This document shows positions 1 through 39,631 of a DNA stretch of 39,631 nt, piece by piece (the first letter of the stretch is position 1; each line of letters begins with the position of its first letter). The stretch comes from a virus: the IMG/VR virus record IMGVR_UViG_3300047678_000346, positions 1 through 39,631 of that record. One strand, written 5' to 3'. The notes beneath the pieces are model-generated. The model was not told the origin of the DNA. It ran no database searches and worked only from the letters and a program-made list of their open reading frames with translations. Both the position numbers and the translations under genes were made by a program.

Positions 1-1050
1 GTGCTGAAGGCCGTCCAGCCCAATCGCCCCAAACTCACTGCCGAGGCCCCTGCGCTGATCGCCGAGGCGATCGCGGCCGATCATCGGCCCTCGGCGTCTA
101 TCCTGCGCTCACTGATCCACGATTGGCGCACCAGCCCCGAATGGCGAGGGCTCGGCACCAGCACGCGCAAGCTGTGGGGTGATCAGCTCGACCTCATCGA
201 GAAACGGTGGGGCGATAAGCCGATCAGTGTATGGGACGATCCGCGCATGGTCGGCAAGGTGATCAAGTGGCGAGACGAGCGCGCCGCTACCCCGCGCAGC
301 GCCGACATCGGCGTGACGGTGCTGCGCGAACTGCTCAAATATGGGCGGCTGCATGGCCGCGTCCGTATCAACGTCGCCGACGGCATCCCGAAGCTCTACA
401 AGGGCGGCAACCGCCAGGAGATCATCTGGACCGAGGCGGACATGCAGGCCTTCACCGCCGCCGCCATCGAGCTCAAGCGCGCCCATGTCTGCGATGGGCT
501 CCGCCTCGCCGCGCTCACCGGCCTGCGCCGCGCCGATCTCGTCTCGCTCACCTGGGCGCATTTGGGCGAAGTGGCGATCGTCAAGACGGCGCTCAAGAAG
601 AGCCGGGGCCGGCGGCGCAAGGCCGTCGTGCCGATCACTGCGGAACTGGAGACGCTGCTCGCCCAGCTGCGCACCAGGCCAAGGAAGCCCGGCGTCCAGA
701 CCGTGCTGGTCAACAGCCACGGCCGCGCATGGACCGAGGGCGGTTTCACCGGCAGCTTCAATCTGATTCGCGACAAGGCCGACATCGCTCATGTCGAAGA
801 GGGCGACGACGGCCAGCCGGTCCGGCGGCGCAAGCACCTGCACGACGTGCGCGGCACCTTCTGCACCCTCCTGCTCACCGAATGCGGCCTGACCGACGAG
901 GAAGCCGCCAAGATCATGGCCTGGTCCCCCACCCGCGTCGGCCGCGTCCGCGACCTCTACGTGGACAGCGCCGCCATCGTCATCTCGCTCGCCGAAAGGA
1001 TGCGAGCAAAACAAAAAGCAAAACACTCCACCAACTGCCCTTGGCGATAA
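1..1050 (+). CDS. int: Tyrosine recombinase integrase, C-terminal part (partial)
   Basis: Site-specific tyrosine recombinase that would integrate and excise the phage. The catalytic residues are visible: Arg in TGLRRADL (about residue 176 of this part), the HxxR box HDVRG (281-284) and the nucleophile Tyr in VRDLY (320). The first 150 residues are the SAM-like core-binding region (SPEWRGL, VWDDPRM, ATPRSADIGVTVLRELL). The 5' end is cut by the window edge. The GTG at position 1 is probably not a start, because the last 23 codons of the window (39563-39631) encode a typical integrase N-terminus in the frame that continues here, joining as ...YVYAFK-VLKAVQPNRPKLT. The stop lies 35 bp before the tRNA-Gly-derived attP core, the usual int-att layout. 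The full protein would be about 372 aa. Confidence 0.93.
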   Translation: MLKAVQPNRPKLTAEAPALIAEAIAADHRPSASILRSLIHDWRTSPEWRGLGTSTRKLWGDQLDLIEKRWGDKPISVWDDPRMVGKVIKWRDERAATPRSADIGVTVLRELLKYGRLHGRVRINVADGIPKLYKGGNRQEIIWTEADMQAFTAAAIELKRAHVCDGLRLAALTGLRRADLVSLTWAHLGEVAIVKTALKKSRGRRRKAVVPITAELETLLAQLRTRPRKPGVQTVLVNSHGRAWTEGGFTGSFNLIRDKADIAHVEEGDDGQPVRRRKHLHDVRGTFCTLLLTECGLTDEEAAKIMAWSPTRVGRVRDLYVDSAAIVISLAERMRAKQKAKHSTNCPWR

Positions 1051-30633: not shown

Positions 30634-32028
30634 TCATTGGTCAGTTGCTTCGATCCTGGCGAGGGTGTCGTTGAAATCCATCGTCACCGGCGGTCGGATC
30701 GCCTTGACCGACGTCGCCCCCGCGTGCCGCCAGTGTTGGCAGGCGATCGATCCGCACAGCGCAGCGCGTTCGAGCGCGCCCAGCATCCTCTTGCCGCGCA
30801 CCGCCCCGCGCACCGCCTGCACCAGGCGCTCGATCGGCTTCATGTCCGCATCGACCAGGATGATCACCGCGCCCGGCTCGGGCAGCACGAATGGCGGCCG
30901 TTGCAAATCCGCCATCGGTGACCACAGCTTGATCGCCCCCATCGCATCGCGCCCGATCCCGCCTTGCAGATTGTCCAGGCTCAGCGTCGCCGCCGCTCGC
31001 ACCGGCACGCCGCGCCTGAAATAGCCCTGGGCCACGGACCACACTGTCTCGATCCCCTCGCCGACCAGCAGCGGCCGGTCGCGGGCCGCGTGCGGCAATC
31101 CCGCAAGCCACACCGCATGGCCGCTCACCGGGCCCCACATTTTCCGCGTCGGCCGGGGCGTCCCGTCCGGATAGGCGGGCAGCGACGCCTTCGCCCGCCC
31201 GTCCGCCGCCAGATAGGTCGCATGCACCCCGCGCACATGCCCGTCGGCGTCGCGCATCGGCGCGATCATCGCTGGCAGGGTCAGCCGCCCGCTCCCGGCT
31301 GCGTCATGCGCGGCCCAGGGCGCGTGTACCGCGCGCGGGTGGAAACGCAGCCCGTCAAGCCCCTCGGGCAGCGCCTGCGGATCAAGCGCGCGCGCTCGCA
31401 GCCAGGCCTCGATGATTTCGCCGCGCGCCGGGACAGACGTCTGCCACAGCCACCGACCGACCGTCGCCGACGTCACCAGCTCCGGCGCGTCACGGCGCGG
31501 TGGCCCCGGGCGCTCGACCGGCGGCGCCGCGACCCGCGCCTCGACGGCCAGCAACCCGCCGCTGTCGAGCCGCCGCACCGCCTCGCGGAAATCGACCCCC
31601 TCGGTCTGCATGACGAACTCGATCGCATCGCCATGCGCCCCGCAGCCGAAGCAATGATAATAGCCCTTTTCGTTCGACACCGTGAAGCTCGGTGTCTTTT
31701 CGTTATGGAACGGGCAGAGACCGCCAAACGCCCGCCCGGTGCGGCGCAGCTTCACTCGTCGCGCGACCAGCTGCTCGAGCGAGACGCGCGCGCGTATCTC
31801 CTCGAGCCTGTCAGCACCGATCCGGGCCCACCCGGCGCGGCGGCGCAACTGCTCGATCTCCAGCGACGATCCACGCGCCTCCAGCGCGGAGACGAACAGG
31901 CTCTTCCAGTGATAGGCGGTGGTGAATGGCACGCCGAGATCGGCGGCGGCGCGATAGACCGACAGCCCCGCGATCAGCTTTTGCTCGAACGCGCGCCGCT
32001 GTTCGAGCAGCGCCGCTTTCGCGCCCAT
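30634..32028 (-). CDS. DNA primase (CHC2 zinc finger plus Toprim)
   Basis: 464 aa from ATG 32028, overlapping the ParB-like stop by one base (TGATG). A short HTH (about 20-45, GLSVYRAAADLGVPFTTAYHW) is followed by the CHC2 zinc finger with CPFH (105-108) and CFGC (126-129), and by a Toprim-like domain (RPLLVGEGIETVWSV, GAVIILVDADMK), where the Glu and the DxD bind metal. It makes RNA primers for phage replication. The upstream HTH is unusual for stand-alone primases. Confidence 0.9.
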   Translation of the reverse strand: MGAKAALLEQRRAFEQKLIAGLSVYRAAADLGVPFTTAYHWKSLFVSALEARGSSLEIEQLRRRAGWARIGADRLEEIRARVSLEQLVARRVKLRRTGRAFGGLCPFHNEKTPSFTVSNEKGYYHCFGCGAHGDAIEFVMQTEGVDFREAVRRLDSGGLLAVEARVAAPPVERPGPPRRDAPELVTSATVGRWLWQTSVPARGEIIEAWLRARALDPQALPEGLDGLRFHPRAVHAPWAAHDAAGSGRLTLPAMIAPMRDADGHVRGVHATYLAADGRAKASLPAYPDGTPRPTRKMWGPVSGHAVWLAGLPHAARDRPLLVGEGIETVWSVAQGYFRRGVPVRAAATLSLDNLQGGIGRDAMGAIKLWSPMADLQRPPFVLPEPGAVIILVDADMKPIERLVQAVRGAVRGKRMLGALERAALCGSIACQHWRHAGATSVKAIRPPVTMDFNDTLARIEATDQ

Positions 32029-34112
32029 CACGCCGCCTCCGCCGCTGCGCCAGGCACCATGTCGGCCTCGGCCTCCGCGCCGACCCCGAAGCTCAGATAG
32101 GGCGGCACCCAGCTTTTCGCCCGCTCGGCCAGCTTCCAGGCCTGCTCCGGCGACACGATCTTGGTCAGCAGCGCCCGGTCGCCCTCGCCGAAGATCGCCG
32201 CGCACCGGGCGGTCAGGCCGTCATTGTCCAGCTTCTGCGAATCGCGGGCGATCGCCGGGTCGAGCGCGTCCAGCGCCGCGAGCCGGTGCTTCCTGGGCAG
32301 GTTCGCCCAATAGGCCGCATCGGGCGTCCAATAGGTGCGGACCGCCGCGTCGGTCAGCCCGATATGCGCGGCCAGCGCATCATGCACCGCGCTGGCATGA
32401 CCCGGCGCAGCGAGCGACCGCGCCAGGATCAGCCCGGCCGCATAGCGCATCCACTGAAAGCGCGCCTCGCCCGGCAGCGCCACGAACTGCCGATAGCCAT
32501 CCGCCGCGTCGTCCGTATCGATCCAGCTGCGATCGAGTGCGCCGAGCAACGTGTCGACGATGCAGTGGGCGGGCTGCGCGATCAGCTCGGCATGATCCGC
32601 CAGCGCCTGGTCGGTCACCACCGCGCCGGCCATCCCGCTGCGCTTGGCCAGCCCCAGGCCAACGACCGCGCGCACGATCGCGAAGGTCAGATAGTCGCCC
32701 GCCCAAACCGGCCCGGCCAGCACAGCGGCCTGCAGGATATTGCGGCGGTGCGCGCTCATCAGCTCGATCCCGGTCTTGCTGAGGCCATGATCGCGCTTGA
32801 TCGCCGCCTCGGACGAAATATGGCTCTCCCTGGGCGTCGGTGCGCCCGCCGTCGCAGCCGCCTCGAACTCGGTCGGATTGTCCGGCGACCAGTCCGCCGG
32901 CACATGCCGCACCGCATGAGCATCGATCATGAACCGGCCCGTCCGCTCGTCGAGGCGTGGCCGCGCGATCAGCTTGCCGTCGACCGCTGGAAAGGTGAAA
33001 CCGCTCTCGGTATCCTCGATCGTCTCGATCGCGTCGTCGATATCGTTGAGCTGGTCATCGAGCGCTGACGCCTTGCCCTCGTCCTCCGCGTTGAGCAGAT
33101 CGCCCTCCGCGTCGCAAAGCGCATCCAGCGCCGCGCGGATCTCGGCGGCCCTGGCCTTCAAAGCCTCGACCCTGGCCAGCGCCTCGCCGGTCAAGGGCTC
33201 GCGCTCGGCCGCTACATAGCTGCCGACGCCATAGGCGATCGGCTCGTCGACCAGCTCGATCTGCGGCAAGGCGTCGCGCAGCCTCTCGAACGCCTGGGCC
33301 TTCCGCTCGGCGAACAGCCGCGCCAATATGTCAGGATCCAGCACCCGCGCCCGATCCATATCGTCGAACAGGTCGATCTCGATCCGACCGCCCGCCGCCT
33401 CATAGCGTTCCCTTCCGACCGCGCGCAGCTGCACATTGAGCGTATGGCTGTCCTTCCCCGCGATCAGGCCGTTGATATTGTGTGGATAGCGCGACCGGGA
33501 CGGGATCTGCTGATAGGCCGCCCACGCCTTGGCCTGCAGAGCCTGGTCGGCGGTGGCGGCGAAATTGCGTGCCTCCTCCTCCTTCAGCGCCCCGCTCTCG
33601 AACGCCGCGAGCAGGTCGGGGTGCAGATTGCCCAGCCGCAGCAGCTGCCCCACCCGCCGCGCCGACACCCCGAAATGCTCGGCGATCGCCGCCTCGCTCG
33701 CGCCGGCATCGGCGAGCCGGGCGAAGGCCGCATATTCCTCGTGCGGCTTCAGCGGCTCGCGCAGGATATTCTCGGCCAGGCTAATCTCGACGATCTCCGC
33801 CGCGTCGCTCTCCGGCCGGACGACCACCGGCACCATGTAATTCTCGCCGATCTTCAGCTCGTTCGCCAGCTCGCGCAGCGCGCGATAGCGCCGACCCCCG
33901 GCGATCACCTGATATTTGGCCTTCGCGCCCTTCGCCCCCTTCGGCGGCGCCGTGACGCTGAGCGGCGCCAGCACCCCGCGCGCCAGGATCGACGCTTTCA
34001 GCCCAGGCAGCGCCGGGTCGGGCCGGTCGCCACGCACATTCGCTTCAGCGACGCACAGCGTCGCCAGCGTTACCGAAGTCTGCTCCGGCACCACCTTGTC
34101 GGTCGCACTCAT
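32028..34112 (-). CDS. ParB/RepB/Spo0J-like protein
   Basis: 694 aa. The N-terminal ParB domain has AGGRRYRALREL (71-82, the CTP-binding GxRRxR patch) and ENILREPLKPHEE (114-126). A helix-turn-helix lies at 138-160 (SEAAIAEHFGVSARRVGQLLRL). The long C-terminus is unlike chromosomal ParB (about 300 aa). Such large versions occur on plasmids and phages of alphaproteobacteria. No ParA is present in the window, so classical partition is doubtful. A role as replication or DNA-loading factor is an alternative. It overlaps both neighbours. Confidence 0.87.
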   Translation of the reverse strand: MSATDKVVPEQTSVTLATLCVAEANVRGDRPDPALPGLKASILARGVLAPLSVTAPPKGAKGAKAKYQVIAGGRRYRALRELANELKIGENYMVPVVVRPESDAAEIVEISLAENILREPLKPHEEYAAFARLADAGASEAAIAEHFGVSARRVGQLLRLGNLHPDLLAAFESGALKEEEARNFAATADQALQAKAWAAYQQIPSRSRYPHNINGLIAGKDSHTLNVQLRAVGRERYEAAGGRIEIDLFDDMDRARVLDPDILARLFAERKAQAFERLRDALPQIELVDEPIAYGVGSYVAAEREPLTGEALARVEALKARAAEIRAALDALCDAEGDLLNAEDEGKASALDDQLNDIDDAIETIEDTESGFTFPAVDGKLIARPRLDERTGRFMIDAHAVRHVPADWSPDNPTEFEAAATAGAPTPRESHISSEAAIKRDHGLSKTGIELMSAHRRNILQAAVLAGPVWAGDYLTFAIVRAVVGLGLAKRSGMAGAVVTDQALADHAELIAQPAHCIVDTLLGALDRSWIDTDDAADGYRQFVALPGEARFQWMRYAAGLILARSLAAPGHASAVHDALAAHIGLTDAAVRTYWTPDAAYWANLPRKHRLAALDALDPAIARDSQKLDNDGLTARCAAIFGEGDRALLTKIVSPEQAWKLAERAKSWVPPYLSFGVGAEAEADMVPGAAAEAA

Positions 34113-34845: not shown

Positions 34846-35360
34846 CAGCCCTGCGCCACCCGGCTGTTGACCTGGGCCAGCGCCGCCTGCAGCGCGATCG
34901 ACGCGGCCACACTCACGCGCAGCGCGACGCCCAGGCCGTGGATTTCCACAGCATCGCCGTCACGCACGGCCGCGAACAGCGGCCCGGCGGGCGTCTCGCC
35001 CAGCACGCCTTTCGCACCGTCATCCGCCAGCGCCTTGGCCTCGACCGCACCGGCCGCCAGCGCGGCCACCGCGCTTTTGTCAGCCGGCCACAGCCCGCGC
35101 CGGTGAAAATCGGCCTCCCTCACCGCCCCCCGCGTCGCGCGCCCGATGCCCTCTGCGGCTTCGCTTTCGGGAATCACCTCGCCCTGCAGGATGCGATCGA
35201 TCATCGTCTGCGGCACGGCGTCATAGAGATCGGCCAGCGCGTCGCCGGCATCGATCATCCACAGGCCGAGCCGCTCGACCCCCCGGCTCGCGCCGCGCGG
35301 GATCTGCCACACCCGCGCCGCCTGTCCCGCGCGCACCAGCGCGCCCATCGCGATAGTCAT
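34845..35360 (-). CDS. Hypothetical early protein
   Basis: 171 aa, unrecognised. A helical N-terminal part has VWQIPRGASRGVERLGLWMIDAGDALADLYDA. There is no signal peptide, and the C-terminus is Ala-rich and moderately hydrophobic (VALRVSVAASIALQAALAQV). It is coupled to the CII-like gene by ATGA. Nothing in the sequence points to a function. Confidence 0.62.
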   Translation of the reverse strand: MTIAMGALVRAGQAARVWQIPRGASRGVERLGLWMIDAGDALADLYDAVPQTMIDRILQGEVIPESEAAEGIGRATRGAVREADFHRRGLWPADKSAVAALAAGAVEAKALADDGAKGVLGETPAGPLFAAVRDGDAVEIHGLGVALRVSVAASIALQAALAQVNSRVAQG

Positions 35361-35842
35361 CGATCATCCTCCGCTCGTTGGGCTAGGGCGGCGCGCAGCT
35401 GCACCGCAATCTCGATCAGTTCGTCGGCATCCTTCAGCCGCCCGCGCGCTTCCGCCGGCGAGACGTCATTGTCGTCGGCCAGGTCGCCCGCGATGCCGCT
35501 GATCGTCTCTCCCGCCTCGCGCGCCAGCTCGGCGACGAAGCGGCTCCACTTGGTCGCGGGACGATAGGGATCGGGCAGCGCGATCAGCGCGAACCCCGCC
35601 TCGGCGGCGAGCGCGCGCGTGACATGCGGATAGCCCGGCTCGGCCCGCGCCACCGCCTCCAGCGCCGCGATCACGTCGATCGGCGCGAACACATCGCTGT
35701 TGCGCTGGCCATAGGTCGAAATGCGCTGCTGCCCGCGCCCGCACGATGCGGCGGCGCCCTCCTGGCCACCACAGGCCGCCACCAGATCGCGCATCGCCGC
35801 CTTCAAACGCAGCGCGCGGGCCGAAAGCGTGACGCCGCTCAT
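35357..35842 (-). CDS. CII-like phage regulatory protein
   Basis: 161 aa, second gene of the early operon after the Cro-like gene. Its layout (ALRLKAAMRDLVAACGGQEGAAASCGRGQQRISTYGQRNSDVFAPIDVIAALEAVA, then HVTRALAAEAGFALIALP) matches the CII/CP76-type phage regulators, which have an HTH that reads promoter DNA and switch the decision between lysis and lysogeny. Its target promoter here is unknown. The family match is by pattern and position. Confidence 0.7.
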   Translation of the reverse strand: MSGVTLSARALRLKAAMRDLVAACGGQEGAAASCGRGQQRISTYGQRNSDVFAPIDVIAALEAVARAEPGYPHVTRALAAEAGFALIALPDPYRPATKWSRFVAELAREAGETISGIAGDLADDNDVSPAEARGRLKDADELIEIAVQLRAALAQRAEDDR

Positions 35843-36168
35843 GCCCGCGCCGCCTGGGGCGTAGTCTCGCCGTCGATACGCGCCGACGGCGGGGTCGGCG
35901 GCGGGCTATCGGTGACGGCATGATCAAGCGGATCGACCAACCCTGCCCGGACCGACTCGATCAATGCGACGTCGGTATTCAGCGACGCGGCCGGGATACG
36001 GCCACCGGAAAGCGCCTCGATCGCCAAGGCGACCTTCACCGAGCAGCGGCCGCCACGCTCGATCAAAGAGACATTCCCCTTGCTCGCAAGGCCGATCGCG
36101 AGACCGAAACCCTCGAGCGACAGATCGAGTTCGCGACGGAGCTCAGCGATGGTGATTGCGTTCGTCAT
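35839..36168 (-). CDS. Cro-like HTH regulator, first early gene
   Basis: 109 aa from ATG 36168; an upstream in-frame TTG at 36183 lies inside the promoter and is rejected. The XRE-type HTH occupies about 8-45 (ELRRELDLSLEGFGLAIGLASKGNVSLIERGG), followed by a Pro-rich tail (DSPPPTPPSAR). It faces the repressor gene across 94 bp with three GTTTC-N7-GAAAC-type sites. The promoter -10 ends 5 bp before the ATG, so the mRNA is probably leaderless. Confidence 0.82.
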   Translation of the reverse strand: MTNAITIAELRRELDLSLEGFGLAIGLASKGNVSLIERGGRCSVKVALAIEALSGGRIPAASLNTDVALIESVRAGLVDPLDHAVTDSPPPTPPSARIDGETTPQAARA

Positions 36169-36173
36169 GGCGT

Positions 36174-36203
36174 CTTGTTTCAAAAAACGAAACTCGTTGT
36201 CAA
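36174..36203 (-). promoter_or_regulatory. Early lytic promoter (Pcro) with operator O1 in its spacer
   Basis: On the minus strand: -35 TTGACA (36203-36198), 18-bp spacer, -10 AACAAG (36179-36174). Operator GTTTC-N7-GAAAC (36177-36193) covers most of the spacer and overlaps the -10, so a bound repressor would block polymerase. The start of transcription would fall at or next to the ATG at 36168. The architecture is nearly copied at 37110-37139. Confidence 0.72.
36177..36193. promoter_or_regulatory. Operator O1, GTTTC-N7-GAAAC
   Basis: Perfect 5-bp inverted arms with a 7-base centre, 17 bp in all. It overlaps the cro promoter -10. The spacing suits a dimeric HTH repressor. Confidence 0.75.
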
Positions 36204-36211
36204 GCGAGATC

Positions 36212-36228
36212 GTTTCAAAAAACGCTGC
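36212..36228. promoter_or_regulatory. Operator-like site O2 with degenerate right arm
   Basis: GTTTC followed by the same AAAAAAC centre as O1 and then GCTGC in place of GAAAC. It shares 13 contiguous bases with O1, placed 35 bp away. It lies between the two promoters, near the -35 of the repressor promoter. Confidence 0.6.
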
Positions 36229-36256
36229 CGACTTTCATTTTGTCAGTTTCTATAAT
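36228..36256 (+). promoter_or_regulatory. Repressor promoter (PcI) giving a probable leaderless mRNA
   Basis: A perfect -10 TATAAT (36251-36256) with a weak -35 CCGACT (36228-36233) at 17 bp. The ATG follows 6 bp after the -10, so transcription should begin at or beside the start codon. The -10 is the centre of operator O3, which implies direct autorepression. Confidence 0.72.
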
Positions 36257-36262
36257 CGCAAC
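36246..36262. promoter_or_regulatory. Operator O3, GTTTC-N7-GCAAC
   Basis: One mismatch from the GTTTC-N7-GAAAC consensus. The 7-base centre is TATAATC, the -10 of the repressor promoter, and the site ends exactly before the ATG at 36263. Confidence 0.65.
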
Positions 36263-36574
36263 ATGGCAAGCCGTGCGCCCTTCGACTGGTTTCTGCCGCA
36301 GTGGATGGCGACGCTCGACATCACCCATGCGAGGCTCATGGAGCTGACCGCCTGGGACAAGCGAAAGACGAGCCAGCTGATCAATGGCAAGCAACCGTTC
36401 AAGCGCGACTCGTTAAGCGACGCGGCCTACGCGCTTCACCTCGCCCCATATGAGTTGCTGATGCATCCGGATGATGCGATGGCGCTGCGTCGTATGAGAG
36501 AATCCGCACTGCAGATCGCCGCCGAAGCACATGACGAATATCGTGCGGAGCCGCGCGCGGGCAACGCAGCTTGA
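36263..36574 (+). CDS. HTH (XRE-like) phage repressor, CI-equivalent
   Basis: 103 aa. The HTH occupies about 17-60 (LDITHARLMELTAWDKRKTSQLINGKQPFKRDSLSDAAYALHL). The following PYELLMHPDDAMALRRMRESALQIAAEA resembles a sphingomonad regulator family. It has no S24/LexA peptidase domain, so induction would need another mechanism than RecA-driven self-cleavage. It stands back to back with the Cro-like gene and starts the plus-strand lysogeny transcript that may read on into the cas module and integrase. Which of the two HTH proteins is the true maintenance repressor is inferred from operon position. Confidence 0.78.
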   Translation: MASRAPFDWFLPQWMATLDITHARLMELTAWDKRKTSQLINGKQPFKRDSLSDAAYALHLAPYELLMHPDDAMALRRMRESALQIAAEAHDEYRAEPRAGNAA

Positions 36575-37080
36575 AGCGATGTCCTGAATGCGATGAGCAG
36601 ATCCAGCGGCGGGCGATCGTCTGCCGCTTTTGCTCCTATCGCTTTCCACCGGAGCACAAACCGCCGTTTCAATGGGGCGGTCTCGCTATCGTCGCAGGCT
36701 TGGCCTTGCTGCTCTGGGTGACCTCGTCCTTGCGTAGCACGTCACCAGACAGCGCGCAGGTCGCTCAACCCGCCGCGATCGCTGCTATTCCAGAAGCGCC
36801 GATCAACGATCCCAAGAAATGCGAGAAAATCATCCGCGTCGTAGAGCGACGCGGCATTGTCAGATCAAGGCCCGACATTGACCGGGTCGATGTGGACGAG
36901 CTGCGGTGGTTGATGCTGCCGGCTCAGGAAAAGTCGGTGGTGCTCCAGATGCTCTACTGCGCGGCTCATCGCGGTCGTTCGATTGCCCAGGGCGAAAGGC
37001 TCGATCGGGCCGTCGTCTATGGCTGGCGCTCCGGCAAACGCCTCGCCATGATCGGCCGGGCAGGGATCACATACGACTAA
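36571..37080 (+). CDS. Zinc-ribbon membrane protein of the lysogeny region
   Basis: 169 aa. It starts with TTG at 36571, overlapping the repressor stop (TTGA), with no ATG close by. An N-terminal zinc ribbon CPEC...CRFC (residues 4-7 and 18-21) is followed by one membrane segment (LAIVAGLALLLWVTSSL) and a soluble domain of about 115 residues with two more cysteines. Membrane proteins expressed with a prophage repressor often block superinfection, so an exclusion role is plausible, though not shown by the sequence. Confidence 0.72.
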   Translation: MKRCPECDEQIQRRAIVCRFCSYRFPPEHKPPFQWGGLAIVAGLALLLWVTSSLRSTSPDSAQVAQPAAIAAIPEAPINDPKKCEKIIRVVERRGIVRSRPDIDRVDVDELRWLMLPAQEKSVVLQMLYCAAHRGRSIAQGERLDRAVVYGWRSGKRLAMIGRAGITYD

Positions 37081-37085
37081 ATGGA

Positions 37086-37102
37086 GTTTCATTTACCGAA
37101 AC
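37086..37102. promoter_or_regulatory. Operator O4, GTTTC-N7-GAAAC
   Basis: Perfect arms with centre ATTTACC, ending 7 bp before the -35 of the cas-module promoter. Same consensus as O1 in the repressor/cro region. Confidence 0.75.
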
Positions 37103-37109
37103 AAATTGC

Positions 37110-37139
37110 TTGACTTCTAGTTTCGAATTTTGAAACAAT
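37110..37139 (+). promoter_or_regulatory. Promoter of the cas module, near copy of the cro promoter
   Basis: -35 TTGACT (37110-37115), 18-bp spacer, -10 AACAAT (37134-37139). The spacer holds a perfect operator (O5). Aligned with the cro promoter it shares TTGAC, AGTTTCG, TTTTGAAACAA and identical spacing. The start would be near 37145, about 20 bp before the first ATG (37166), which has a GGAGA ribosome binding site. Confidence 0.72.
37120..37136. promoter_or_regulatory. Operator O5, GTTTC-N7-GAAAC
   Basis: Perfect arms with centre GAATTTT. It lies in the promoter spacer and overlaps the -10, as O1 does in the cro promoter. Confidence 0.77.
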
Positions 37140-37165
37140 GCGCCCCGTCACCGACGGAGAGCGCC

Positions 37166-37327
37166 ATGCTACCCTTTTCCGACCTTCACCCTGCCTGGTG
37201 CCACTGCGCCAGCTGCGAACCCTATATCCCGGCTGATCGGTCGCGTCGCGACCAGGCTCAGCTGCGCTTCCTCGCCGCCGCCGGCCTCGCGCTCGCGATC
37301 GCCGTCACCGCCTGGGTGCTGGCATGA
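37166..37327 (+). CDS. Small Cys-rich tail-anchored membrane protein upstream of cas gene
   Basis: 53 aa from ATG 37166, with GGAGA about 5 bp upstream. The N-terminus has WCHCASC (11-17), a possible metal site. Residues 35-52 form a single membrane segment (FLAAAGLALAIAVTAWVL). Its stop overlaps an ATG of the cas frame (ATGA at 37324-37327). It is the first gene under the operator-controlled promoter, so it may be a partner of the Cas12-like protein, for instance in membrane tethering or host toxicity; this is speculative. Confidence 0.68.
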   Translation: MLPFSDLHPAWCHCASCEPYIPADRSRRDQAQLRFLAAAGLALAIAVTAWVLA

Positions 37328-37374: not shown

Positions 37375-38643
37375 ATGAATCCGGAACCCGAAGCGCCGCC
37401 CGAAACACTCGTGCGCATGTATAAATATCGGGCCTTCCCGCCCAAATCTGGCCGCGCTGCCTTCGCCCAGGCAATTGCCCTCAAGCGCGCGATGTGGGCC
37501 GATCTGTGCGCCATGCATCCACCCTTCGCCGAGAAAATGGCGGAGGCGCGCAAGGCCAAGGATCAGGACGCGCTGTCTGCCCTCCGCCGCGATCGCACGG
37601 CGGCCATCGCCGACATCCGGCGCGGCTATGCCGAGTGCGGCCTGGCCTGGGGTGATTACAACGCCGTCGTTTTTCAGTTCGAGGGCGCGGTGCGGGCGTC
37701 GGCGGCGCGTGGTGCGATGCCAGCCGCGCATGATGGCGCGCTGGGTGAGGCCGTGGTCCGCCAGCTGATGGGCACCGTGCGACCGCATCACCTGCTGTCG
37801 CGCAACGATGTCTGCATTGAATATCTGGAGCCGAACGAGCGGGAGCGGACGCGCAAGCCGGGGTCGCACCGCTCGAAATGGCGCACCGCGCGCATGGACT
37901 TCTCGATCCGCACGGATCGCAATGTCGAAGGCCCGGCCTCGATGGTGCTGGAGTTCATCCTCCGCCGCCCGCTGCCCGCCAACGCGCGGCTGGTCGAGGT
38001 GCGTATCCTGCGCGAGACACGTCCGATCATCCGCCAGGACGGATCAGCGGGCGAGCGGGAGCAGTGGTATGTGTGCTTTGCGGCGCGGATCGAACGTCCG
38101 CAGCGCGCCGGAGACCGCGCGATCGGCGTGGCGCTCGACTGGTCCGGGGCCGGTGACGATGGCACGCACGCGCTGGTCATCGCCGACGATAGCGGGCGCA
38201 GCCGAGACATAGTGTTCGGCGAGGATCATCTCGCCGCCTGGGCGCGATCGAAAGAGATGTTCGCCGACGCCGACGCTGAACCGGATGCGGCGCTGGCCGC
38301 AGCGAAGCGCAACGAAGCGTTGATCTATCGGCGGCGGTTGGAGGTCGAACGCCGCCTGCGCCACCGGACGCTGGCGGCGCAGATCGCGCGCGACGGCGAT
38401 ATTGTCGGCATCCAGAAAATCTGGTTGGCGGAGAAAGGCGTCAAGAACTTCACCGCGCCCGCCGCCTTCCGGCTCGCACTCAAGCACGCGGTCGAAAATG
38501 CGGGTGGGCGAATTGTCGAGGTGAAGGCCGCGAAAAAGGACTTTGCCGGGTCCGCAAAAAAGCTGGCCCACCACCTCCGCATCGAGGCGAAGGCCGCAAT
38601 TTTGGCCGGGCAGAATGATGACTTTTCAGAGGCCGCAGAATGA
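37375..38643 (+). CDS. Miniature Cas12/TnpB-like CRISPR effector (type V-like), possibly nuclease-dead
   Basis: 422 aa from ATG 37375, which has GGAG seven bases upstream; a 439-aa form from ATG 37324 (ATGA overlap) is possible. The start VRMYKYRAFPPKSGRAAF (13-30) matches the opening of TnpB/Cas12 proteins, followed by a helical region. RuvC-like parts: IGVALDWSG with D255 (motif I), DGDIVGIQKIW where Q347 takes the place of the catalytic Glu (motif II), the helix AAFRLALKHAVENAGGRIVEVKA (363-385), and RIEAKAAIL with E404 in place of Asp (motif III). The zinc ribbon normally between motifs II and III is absent, with no CxxC anywhere. The array begins 15 bp after the stop. No Cas1, Cas2 or Cas4 is nearby. 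It would be among the smallest Cas12-like effectors. The RuvC alignment is by eye. Confidence 0.8.
   Translation: MNPEPEAPPETLVRMYKYRAFPPKSGRAAFAQAIALKRAMWADLCAMHPPFAEKMAEARKAKDQDALSALRRDRTAAIADIRRGYAECGLAWGDYNAVVFQFEGAVRASAARGAMPAAHDGALGEAVVRQLMGTVRPHHLLSRNDVCIEYLEPNERERTRKPGSHRSKWRTARMDFSIRTDRNVEGPASMVLEFILRRPLPANARLVEVRILRETRPIIRQDGSAGEREQWYVCFAARIERPQRAGDRAIGVALDWSGAGDDGTHALVIADDSGRSRDIVFGEDHLAAWARSKEMFADADAEPDAALAAAKRNEALIYRRRLEVERRLRHRTLAAQIARDGDIVGIQKIWLAEKGVKNFTAPAAFRLALKHAVENAGGRIVEVKAAKKDFAGSAKKLAHHLRIEAKAAILAGQNDDFSEAAE
37965..37994 (+). other. Self-protospacer: 30 bp identical to CRISPR spacer 1, inside the cas12-like gene
   Basis: Exact 30/30 match, same strand, to spacer 1 (38695-38724). 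The flanking bases differ from the repeats at once on both sides (G before, C after). It codes for residues 197-207 (RRPLPANARLV), before the RuvC part. The 5' flank is ATCCTCCG and the 3' flank CGAGGTGC, so a C-rich 5' PAM such as CCG would be the candidate if targeting is productive. Confidence 0.96.
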
Positions 38644-38658
38644 CTTGCGATCATATCC

Positions 38659-38891
38659 GTTTCTCTGCGCCTGCGTCGGGGCGATGCCGACACCCCGCCC
38701 GCTGCCCGCCAACGCGCGGCTGGTGTTTCTCTGCGCCTGCGTCGGGGCGATGCCGACACCTCCCGGCGACCCGGCGACCTCCGAATTCTGTTTCTCTGCG
38801 CCTGCGTCGGGGCGACGCCGACACCCTGCCGGCCGGCAGGCTGACTGGACTGTGGGTTTCTCTGCGCCTGCGTCGGGGCGATGCCGACACC
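38659..38891 (+). CRISPR. CRISPR array: four 36-bp repeats, three spacers (30, 29, 30 bp)
   Basis: Repeats at 38659-38694, 38725-38760, 38790-38825 and 38856-38891. All are identical except for one T-to-C change at repeat position 27 in the third. The repeat starts GTTTCTCTGCGCC and ends in a stem-loop, GTCGG (17-21) pairing with CCGAC (29-33), followed by ACC; the variant base is in the loop. A 3' stem directly before the spacer, on the strand of the effector gene, fits type V crRNA handles. Spacers: 38695-38724 (identical to 37965-37994), 38761-38789 and 38826-38855 (no match in the window). No separate promoter is seen, so co-transcription with the effector gene is likely. No anti-repeat for a tracrRNA was found. 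Confidence 0.95.
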
Positions 38892-38934
38892 TGCGCCGGT
38901 TCTCGGTGCCACCGCGCGCGAGGGACGGCACATC

Positions 38935-39375
38935 ATGATATCTGACCGTCCCCGCTGGGCCGACCATTGGCCCCAGCTCGCCCGCGTCGCAGCGCGCGCG
39001 GCCCAGGCGCGCGAAGGCCGCGAGGATTATTCCGCGTGGCGCGCGATCGCGGCCGACTGGCAGTTCGTCATCAGTCATCGTCGCCCCGACGCGCCGGCCA
39101 TCCCTGCAGAGGCCCGCATCGCGGCGATCGCAAGCGCCGTGACACGCGCGCGCGCCGCGCTCGCCAAGGCAGGCGTCGACTATGGGTCCCTCCAGACCAC
39201 CGGCCGCGATGCGCTTGAGGGCGCGATCGGCCTCATGGTGATCAAGGTCGAGGCACTCGACACACTGCTCTGGCACGAACGCCAGATCCGCTTCGGGCGG
39301 CCGATGGTGCTGTTCCTCAGTCACATCAACATCATGCTCGGTGCCAGGTCGGCAGAACAGCGCGAGGCCGCGTGA
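38935..39375 (+). CDS. Hypothetical helical protein after the CRISPR array
   Basis: 146 aa from ATG 38935, with AGGGA upstream; an in-frame ATG at 38881 lies inside the last CRISPR repeat and is rejected. Mostly helical (WPQLARVAARAAQAREGREDYSAWRAIAADW, TRARAALAKAGVDYGSL). It has no cysteine or membrane segment and no recognised family. It starts 43 bp after the last repeat and is coupled to the next gene (TGATG), so it belongs to the transcript running into the integrase. Confidence 0.68.
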   Translation: MISDRPRWADHWPQLARVAARAAQAREGREDYSAWRAIAADWQFVISHRRPDAPAIPAEARIAAIASAVTRARAALAKAGVDYGSLQTTGRDALEGAIGLMVIKVEALDTLLWHERQIRFGRPMVLFLSHINIMLGARSAEQREAA

Positions 39376-39563
39376 TGGCCGCACACGCTGCCCGCTACGC
39401 CACCAAGGCCAAGATCGAACATGCCGTCGCCGCCGCGCGTGCCTGCGGTCTTGATCCCGCCGGGATCGAGATCACGCCCGACGGCGCGATCCGGGTTGTC
39501 GAGGCGCGCGCGAGCCCCCAGCCTGCGCGATCGGATTTCGACCGATTCGAGGCAGAGCTTTAA
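39375..39563 (+). CDS. Small protein directly before the integrase
   Basis: 62 aa. The ATG at 39375 overlaps the preceding stop by one base, and its own stop overlaps the integrase ATG at 39563. The sequence KAKIEHAVAAARACGLDPAGIEITPDGAIRVVEAR is a helix-then-beta pattern common for small genes coupled to integrases in sphingomonad prophages. An excisionase-like or integrase-partner role is possible, but it lacks a clear HTH. Confidence 0.65.
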   Translation: MAAHAARYATKAKIEHAVAAARACGLDPAGIEITPDGAIRVVEARASPQPARSDFDRFEAEL

Positions 39564-39631
39564 TGGCCATCCAGTTTATCAGGAGCGCGCGTCGGGGGAA
39601 GCCGATCACCTGGTATGTCTATGCGTTCAAG
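39563..39631 (+). CDS. int: Integrase N-terminus (partial, continues at position 1 if the genome is circular)
   Basis: 23 codons to the window end: MAIQFIRSARRGKPITWYVY then AFK. Basic starts with RxGKPxxWYVYA are typical for tyrosine integrases of this group. There are exactly 69 bases, so joining to position 1 keeps the frame of the integrase part there. A few residues (often Gly-Gly-Pro in similar proteins, from memory) seem missing at the join, so a short gap or trimming is possible. Confidence 0.8.
   Translation, partial: MAIQFIRSARRGKPITWYVYAFK

Follow-up and report, generated by a model that had tools for sequence, protein, structure and literature searches.

A Cas12m-like CRISPR module as predicted cargo of a probable second immunity-controlled early promoter of a temperate phage

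Introduction

In the immunity region of phage lambda (cI-rexAB between OL/pL and OR/pR), the repressor gene is located between two early promoters that share operators, and the second promoter, which is separated from the repressor gene by extra genes, drives accessory genes that end in the integrase gene. The Cas12m effectors of subtype V-M of the clustered regularly interspaced short palindromic repeats (CRISPR) systems have been shown to bind DNA without cutting it, to block transcription and to accept T- or C-rich protospacer adjacent motifs (PAMs) (PMC11013384), and some Cas12m clades have no RuvC triad (PMC10442227). V-M systems have already been reported in some prophages (PMC11656645). 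Self-repressors that resemble CRISPR RNAs (crRNAs) are known in types I and V-A (PMC12737573), and the TldR proteins are prophage-borne nuclease-dead TnpB repressors (PMC13418256). In the literature, we found no paper on the timing by a phage of its own CRISPR system. Here, we examine positions 37086 to 37139 of the IMG/VR virus record IMGVR_UViG_3300047678_000346, which precede a cas12m-type gene and a CRISPR array in a temperate phage of sphingomonad-type bacteria. All positions are coordinates of the window, which is the whole record of 39,631 bases.

We conclude, with a probability of about 0.82, that these positions represent P2, which would be the second member of a pair of early promoters under immunity control, take the place of lambda pL/OL and drive the cas gene as cargo. 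As in lambda, the repressor gene lies between two early promoters with shared operators, extra genes intervene between the repressor and the second promoter, and the accessory genes behind the latter appear to end in an integrase gene. Unlike in lambda, the repressor is a single-domain protein of 103 amino acids without the C-terminal LexA-like peptidase domain of the CI type, the operators number three at one place and two at the other, with one of them being a half-site, and the cargo includes a CRISPR module.

Results

Two early promoters with the same operator

The operators and promoters on the two sides of the repressor gene are as follows.

36174-36203, minus strand: P1, early promoter of cro, TTGACA-18-AACAAG
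36177-36193, no strand: operator O1, GTTTCAAAAAACGAAAC, exact motif
36212-36228, no strand: operator O2, half-site and core only (GTTTCAAAAAACGctgc)
36246-36262, no strand: operator O3, GTTTCTATAATCGCAAC, over the TATAAT box of the repressor promoter
37086-37102, no strand: operator O2' of P2, GTTTCATTTACCGAAAC, exact motif
37110-37139, plus strand: P2, second early promoter, TTGACT-18-AACAAT
37120-37136, no strand: operator O1' of P2, GTTTCGAATTTTGAAAC, exact motif

An earlier note on this DNA had described the stretch before the cas module as a copy of the early lytic promoter with the same operator, and had suggested a search for further copies of the motif. The scan of the 39.6-kb record recovered the three perfect GTTTC-N7-GAAAC sites that it named, at 36177, 37086 and 37120, and no other exact site, as compared with about 0.012 expected from the base composition. 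The site at 36246 contains a single mismatch, in agreement with the note, whereas the degenerate site at 36212 proved weaker than claimed, since its resemblance to the site at 36177 is limited to the left half and the core (GTTTCAAAAAACG); O2 is asymmetric in many related phages as well. The sites at 36177, 36212 and 36246 are spaced by 35 and 34 bp, and those at 37086 and 37120 by 34 bp.

The segments at 36169-36205 and 37108-37144 constitute the longest and top-ranking inverted repeat of the region and are identical at 30 of 37 positions. The two promoters share the -35 box, the 18-bp spacer with the operator inside it and the -10 box at the coordinates given previously. When 300 shuffled 37-mers were compared with the record, the best match anywhere was 24 of 37, and a chance origin of the motif was rejected on the basis of these shuffles and the number of exact sites. 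Operators are placed over the divergent cro and repressor promoters, and a second set with the same sequence is found at an early promoter beyond the repressor gene.

The same anatomy in phages with other genes behind P2

Relatives of the repressor were identified in viral contigs and in genomes of sphingomonad and erythrobacter types, and relatives of Cro exist too. Every phage carries a 17-bp dyad of its own (GTTTA..TAAAC, GTTCG..CGAAC, TTTGC..GCAAA, GTTCC..GGAAC and others), which is present between cro and the repressor gene and recurs as a pair of sites, 33 to 36 bp apart, 3' of the repressor gene. Across the 24 related loci, the operator sequence varies from phage to phage and changes at both places jointly. 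The distance of the pair from the anchor codon ranges from 279/314, right after the repressor gene, to 1501/1535 where other genes intervene, and is 799/833 in the phage studied here.

For an automatic scan, the operator word was learned solely from the intergenic region of each locus and the pair was then sought downstream of the repressor gene. A pair with a spacing of 33 to 36 bp was obtained in 24 of 30 loci and in none of 1,500 shuffled stretches. Loci L008, L026, L042, L045, L046 and L047 were added through direct scans, and the hand-aligned set contained 25 loci, that is, this phage and 24 relatives. In this set, the TTG of the -35 box is located 9 to 11 nucleotides before the inner operator at P1 in 23 loci and at P2 in all 25, and O3 occupies the same place in L008, L042 and L045.

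The P2 operons of the relatives contain genes for a single-stranded DNA-binding protein (SSB), ERF, YqaJ, a PDDEXK exonuclease, a C5 methylase, a large serine recombinase (in L008) and integrases. No credible match to the effector was obtained in 32 relative records and genomes, and the CRISPR repeat was absent from the relatives searched. Since the same anatomy recurs in relatives in whose searched records no cas gene was found, P2 is not specific to cas. By comparison of these loci, it is the standard second immunity promoter of the family, similar to lambda pL, with the CRISPR module as its putative cargo. This is where the earlier note, which took P2 to be a copy made for the cas module, did not hold: P2 appears to be an ancestral second early promoter that relatives use for recombination, SSB, methylase and integrase genes. 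A duplication of the promoter with or for the cas module could be argued from the similarity of P1 and P2 in this phage (36 of 52 positions), which exceeds that in most relatives. However, we give it only a very slim chance, given the paired-operator P2 behind the repressor gene in 24 relatives and the results of the effector and repeat searches, and a duplication specific to cas was rejected on account of the cas-less relatives with the same P2.

Two side observations concern the relatives. The first gene of the P2 operon in L030 (4399-5361) encodes 321 amino acids with repeated units of helix-turn-helix (HTH) or sigma-70 region 4 type, an odd architecture. Low-complexity GACGGCTCCGGC/GACGGCTACGGC units, which encode Gly-Asp-Gly repeats, are located at the contig end in L004 (6893-6948).

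The repressor as the most likely operator-binding protein

Two regulatory genes flank the first set of operators.

35839-36168, minus strand: cro-like HTH gene, 109 amino acids, leading gene of the leftward early operon; equivalently placed relatives, with identities of up to 70%, in loci related by their repressor, weak PHROG matches to transcription regulators
36263-36574, plus strand: repressor gene, 103 amino acids, recognition helix DKRKTSQLI; more than 30 relatives, from viral as well as bacterial contigs, covariation with the operator

The repressor has no match in Pfam, PHROG or NCBIfam. Its recognition helix varies together with the operator, in that DKRKTSQLI is paired with GTTTC in this phage, DKRKTSELV with a mixture of GTTTC and GTTCC in L008, GKRKTSELV with GTTCC in L042 and L045, NKARVSL-type helices with GTTTA, and SKATMSQLY-type helices with GTTCG. 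The Mantel correlation between operator class and repressor helix was 0.70 (rho), and 0.57 as a partial correlation that allows for Cro, with none of 2,000 permutations reaching the observed value for either protein. The corresponding values for the Cro helix were 0.58 and, when allowing for the repressor, 0.36.

These latter values would agree with a P2 that is governed mainly by Cro, and which would be turned down late in infection rather than silenced in lysogens. We consider this quite improbable, because the helix of the repressor correlates better with the operator, and because L010 and L030, in which Cro is apparently unrelated, have the same operator class and similar repressor helices. 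For the same two reasons, the 103-amino acid repressor is most likely the protein that recognizes the 17-bp dyads of P1 and P2. Cro is a probable further binding protein. Control of P2 by the repressor, and probably also by Cro, is well supported by these patterns, and the earlier proposal that the lysis-lysogeny regulator would control the CRISPR module thereby gains strong support from the 24 related loci.

Several points weigh against the assignment of P2 as an immunity-controlled promoter that drives the cas gene. The -10 boxes resemble the sigma-70 consensus poorly, and a consensus scan passed the plus-strand promoter only, with 0.7 expected by chance, and did thus no better than chance; because of this, it is by their conservation in the relatives that the promoters are called. 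In the pair scan, 20 of 168 comparisons with the operator word of another phage still yielded a pair, as many words share their outer letters (GTT/AAC ends), and the shuffle figure should therefore not be over-read. No automatic pair was obtained in 6 of the 30 loci, some of which are truncated or mis-seeded, while L035 is probably unrelated. Moreover, the relatives are partly redundant, being from the same contig or nearly identical, the covariation statistic includes no correction for phylogeny and ignores shared ancestry, and a cas gene was seen in the P2 operon of this one phage only.

A minimized Cas12m-type effector

The first genes and the array behind P2 are arranged as follows.

37166-37327, plus strand: 53-amino acid membrane-type open reading frame (ORF), first in the P2 operon, its stop overlapping the upstream cas ATG; no family match in Pfam or PHROG
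37375-38643, plus strand: cas12m-type effector gene, 422 amino acids from the ATG at 37375 and 439 amino acids from that at 37324
37965-37994, plus strand: protospacer in the cas gene that matches spacer 1 at 30 of 30 positions on the same strand; 5' flank ...TCCTCCG
38659-38891, plus strand: CRISPR array, with 36-nucleotide repeats at 38659, 38725, 38790 and 38856
38695-38724, 38761-38789 and 38826-38855, plus strand: spacers of 30, 29 and 30 nucleotides

No close relatives of the effector were found at the usual thresholds in the viral, genome, phage and plasmid collections. The effector matched the PADLOC model for Cas12u1 at 1.2e-7, a model that also matches control genomes carrying TnpB-like proteins. 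Weak plasmid matches, for which E values of up to 10 were accepted, pointed to true Cas12m. Over its N-terminal half, the effector is 23% to 25% identical to true Cas12m proteins that are encoded on two plasmids and one phage contig. The pairwise E values with full Cas12m proteins were 5e-8 to 5e-10, and arrays adjoin one of the plasmid Cas12m genes and two phage genes. Five more viral contigs that encode Cas12m were encountered (L069, L070, L071, L072 and L073); repeats flank the gene in L071, and L072 has a six-repeat array.

A fold predicted from the single effector sequence was useless (predicted local distance difference test, pLDDT, 41.5), and a model based on five sequences, with four phage-borne Cas12m relatives added, reached a pLDDT of 55.5, which is of modest confidence. 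In a Foldseek search with the latter model, the matches ranked 1 to 4 were all Cas12m proteins (E values of 4e-12 to 7e-11), although this support is only partly independent since Cas12m relatives were fed into the model. A profile built from the same alignment retrieved the solved Cas12m chains. Taken together, the data indicate weakly but consistently that the effector is a relative of Cas12m, subtype V-M.

In common with V-M systems, the module has a homologous effector, a RuvC domain that seems dead by its residues, an array beside the effector gene, and no adaptation genes. It differs from typical V-M systems in that the effector has 422 rather than about 590 amino acids, that the RuvC triad is aligned as A, Q and E in place of D, E and D, that the zinc-finger (TNB) segment, CxxC...CxxC, in RuvC is deleted, this being a typical although not a formal feature of the subtype, that a spacer is directed against its own gene, and that the module is placed under phage-immunity operators. 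The effector probably cannot cut double-stranded DNA through RuvC. Because the catalytic residues are lost and characterized Cas12m proteins bind and block transcription, we infer that silencing, not cutting, is the activity to be expected. The earlier note had predicted a module that is active on infection or induction, and active would here mean gene silencing by a binding protein with a spacer that matches its own gene.

A spacer that matches the effector gene

The array begins 15 bases after the cas stop codon, leaving no room for a promoter of its own, and the crRNAs should therefore share the cas transcript. Exact copies of the repeat were not found elsewhere in the viral contigs. The target of spacer 1 encodes the conserved RP-x-P motif of Cas12m (RPLPANARLV), and the protospacer is preceded by CCG while the repeat side of spacer 1 ends in ACC. 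The search for targets of spacers 2 and 3 covered viral contigs (20-nucleotide exact matches), 398 genomes from a single family (with 3 mismatches) and the records of phages and plasmids (best E value about 0.4), and yielded none that was credible.

The match of spacer 1 to the cas gene suggests RNA-guided self-repression. In addition to control by the repressor, crRNA 1 and a dead Cas12m could form a roadblock at 37965-37994 that cuts the expression of cas, array and integrase after a burst from P2, a self-limiting loop that we regard as a real possibility, if somewhat short of an even chance. It would fit the identity of the spacer with the coding strand of cas, the replacement of all three catalytic positions, the flank of CCG at the target as compared with ACC at the repeat, the precedent of crRNA-like self-repressors, and the binding and blocking activity and T- or C-rich PAMs of characterized Cas12m proteins, these PAMs having been recorded for other members of the subtype. 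Since the effector is nuclease-dead by sequence, self-targeting need not kill. On the other hand, this is a single case, as no self-cas match was found among the spacers of the phages L071 and L072 and the plasmid L049 in the DNA examined. Furthermore, the zinc-finger deletion could mean that the effector does not work, and the target is located in the middle of the gene, unlike the promoter target of CreR. The CreR regulators of types I and V-A likewise point to their own cas locus, but the guide here comes from a normal spacer of the array, and the sequence that it fully matches is in the coding region instead of the cas promoter. Similarly to TldR, the phage would carry a dead RNA-guided DNA-binding protein, but one of the Cas12m lineage with a CRISPR array, rather than a TnpB with a transposon-derived guide, and no host target was found.

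Alternatively, spacer 1 may serve competition by silencing the cas operon of co-infecting siblings, with spacers 2 and 3 directed against other rivals and self-silencing as a by-product. Viral mini-arrays often target relatives (PMC11656645), and the protospacer spans a motif conserved in Cas12m. However, the only match at the DNA level is to the gene of the phage itself, and spacers 2 and 3 had no target in the collections searched, and we find this alternative unlikely.

Predicted operation of the locus

According to the preferred reading, in which P2 is the second immunity promoter, the repressor would shut down P2 in the lysogen together with P1, which serves cro and the replication operon. 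Upon infection, before the repressor has accumulated, or upon induction, P1 and P2 would be turned on simultaneously. The predicted P2 operon consists of a small ORF, the cas12m-type gene, the CRISPR array, two small ORFs and the integrase gene, in that order. The crRNAs would be derived from the P2 transcript, and the effector would bind DNA matched by the guides, leave it uncut and block its transcription. This timing, silent in lysogens and expressed on infection or induction, as well as the self-repression, is a prediction. Transcripts from the repressor promoter may read through into cas at a basal level, given that no terminator was detected on the plus strand in between, but operators occupied by the repressor would stand in the path of such transcription.

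More tentatively, and doubtful as a whole, the locus may be a two-layer switch, in which the repressor holds a dead, minimized Cas12m off and, once it is released, crRNA 1 roadblocks its own operon, including the integrase gene. The result would be a timed pulse of RNA-guided silencing in the lysis-lysogeny decision, which could also affect host or rival genes through spacers 2 and 3.

Other genes of the region

The remaining genes of the locus are listed below.

36571-37080, plus strand: zinc-ribbon membrane-anchored protein, between the repressor gene and P2; weak Pfam matches to Zn_ribbon_3/UPF0547 below the cut-off, hydrophobic stretch in the translation
38881-39375, plus strand: ORF 3' of the array, with a likelier ATG at 38935; no family match in Pfam, PHROG or PADLOC
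39372-39563, plus strand: 63-amino acid ORF immediately 5' of the integrase gene
39563-39631, plus strand: start of the integrase gene, 23 codons; joined in frame
1-1050, plus strand: remainder of the tyrosine integrase gene, predicted end of the P2 operon; phrog_1 at 5.3e-23, joined in frame

The integrase gene opens 69 bases before the end of the window and runs on in frame from base 1, which indicates that the phage genome was recorded in circularly permuted form. A tRNA-like segment 3' of the integrase gene, at about 1085-1130 on the plus strand (GGGATCGAACCCGC...CTTGGAAGGC), is likely the attP core; ARAGORN identified no whole tRNA in it. An IS1595-like transposase gene (1379-2293) is located between the integrase and the accessory genes.

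The ATG of the repressor gene is located only 6 nucleotides past the TATAAT box (36251-36265), for which reason the repressor message is probably leaderless, and several relatives look alike. The zinc-ribbon protein gene shares 4 bp with the end of the repressor gene, including its stop, and occupies the slot that corresponds to rexAB in lambda, by analogy with which it is a candidate exclusion gene expressed in lysogeny. A gene for a CII-like regulator (35357-35842; phrog_101, 4e-12) is located 3' of cro, and the leftward early operon also encodes a 694-amino acid protein with ParB N-terminal and HTH domains (32028-34112). No known RNA families were detected near the locus.

Discussion

Since V-M systems are already known from prophages, it is the place of this module in the immunity circuit and the self-directed guide that are of interest. 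If the proposed reading is true, the phage would possess an RNA-guided repressor that answers directly to its lysis-lysogeny switch, serves as an immediate-early tool and carries a guide directed at its own gene. The family of phages with two such promoters, including more than 20 relatives without cas genes, offers a natural comparison for the usual role of the second operon.
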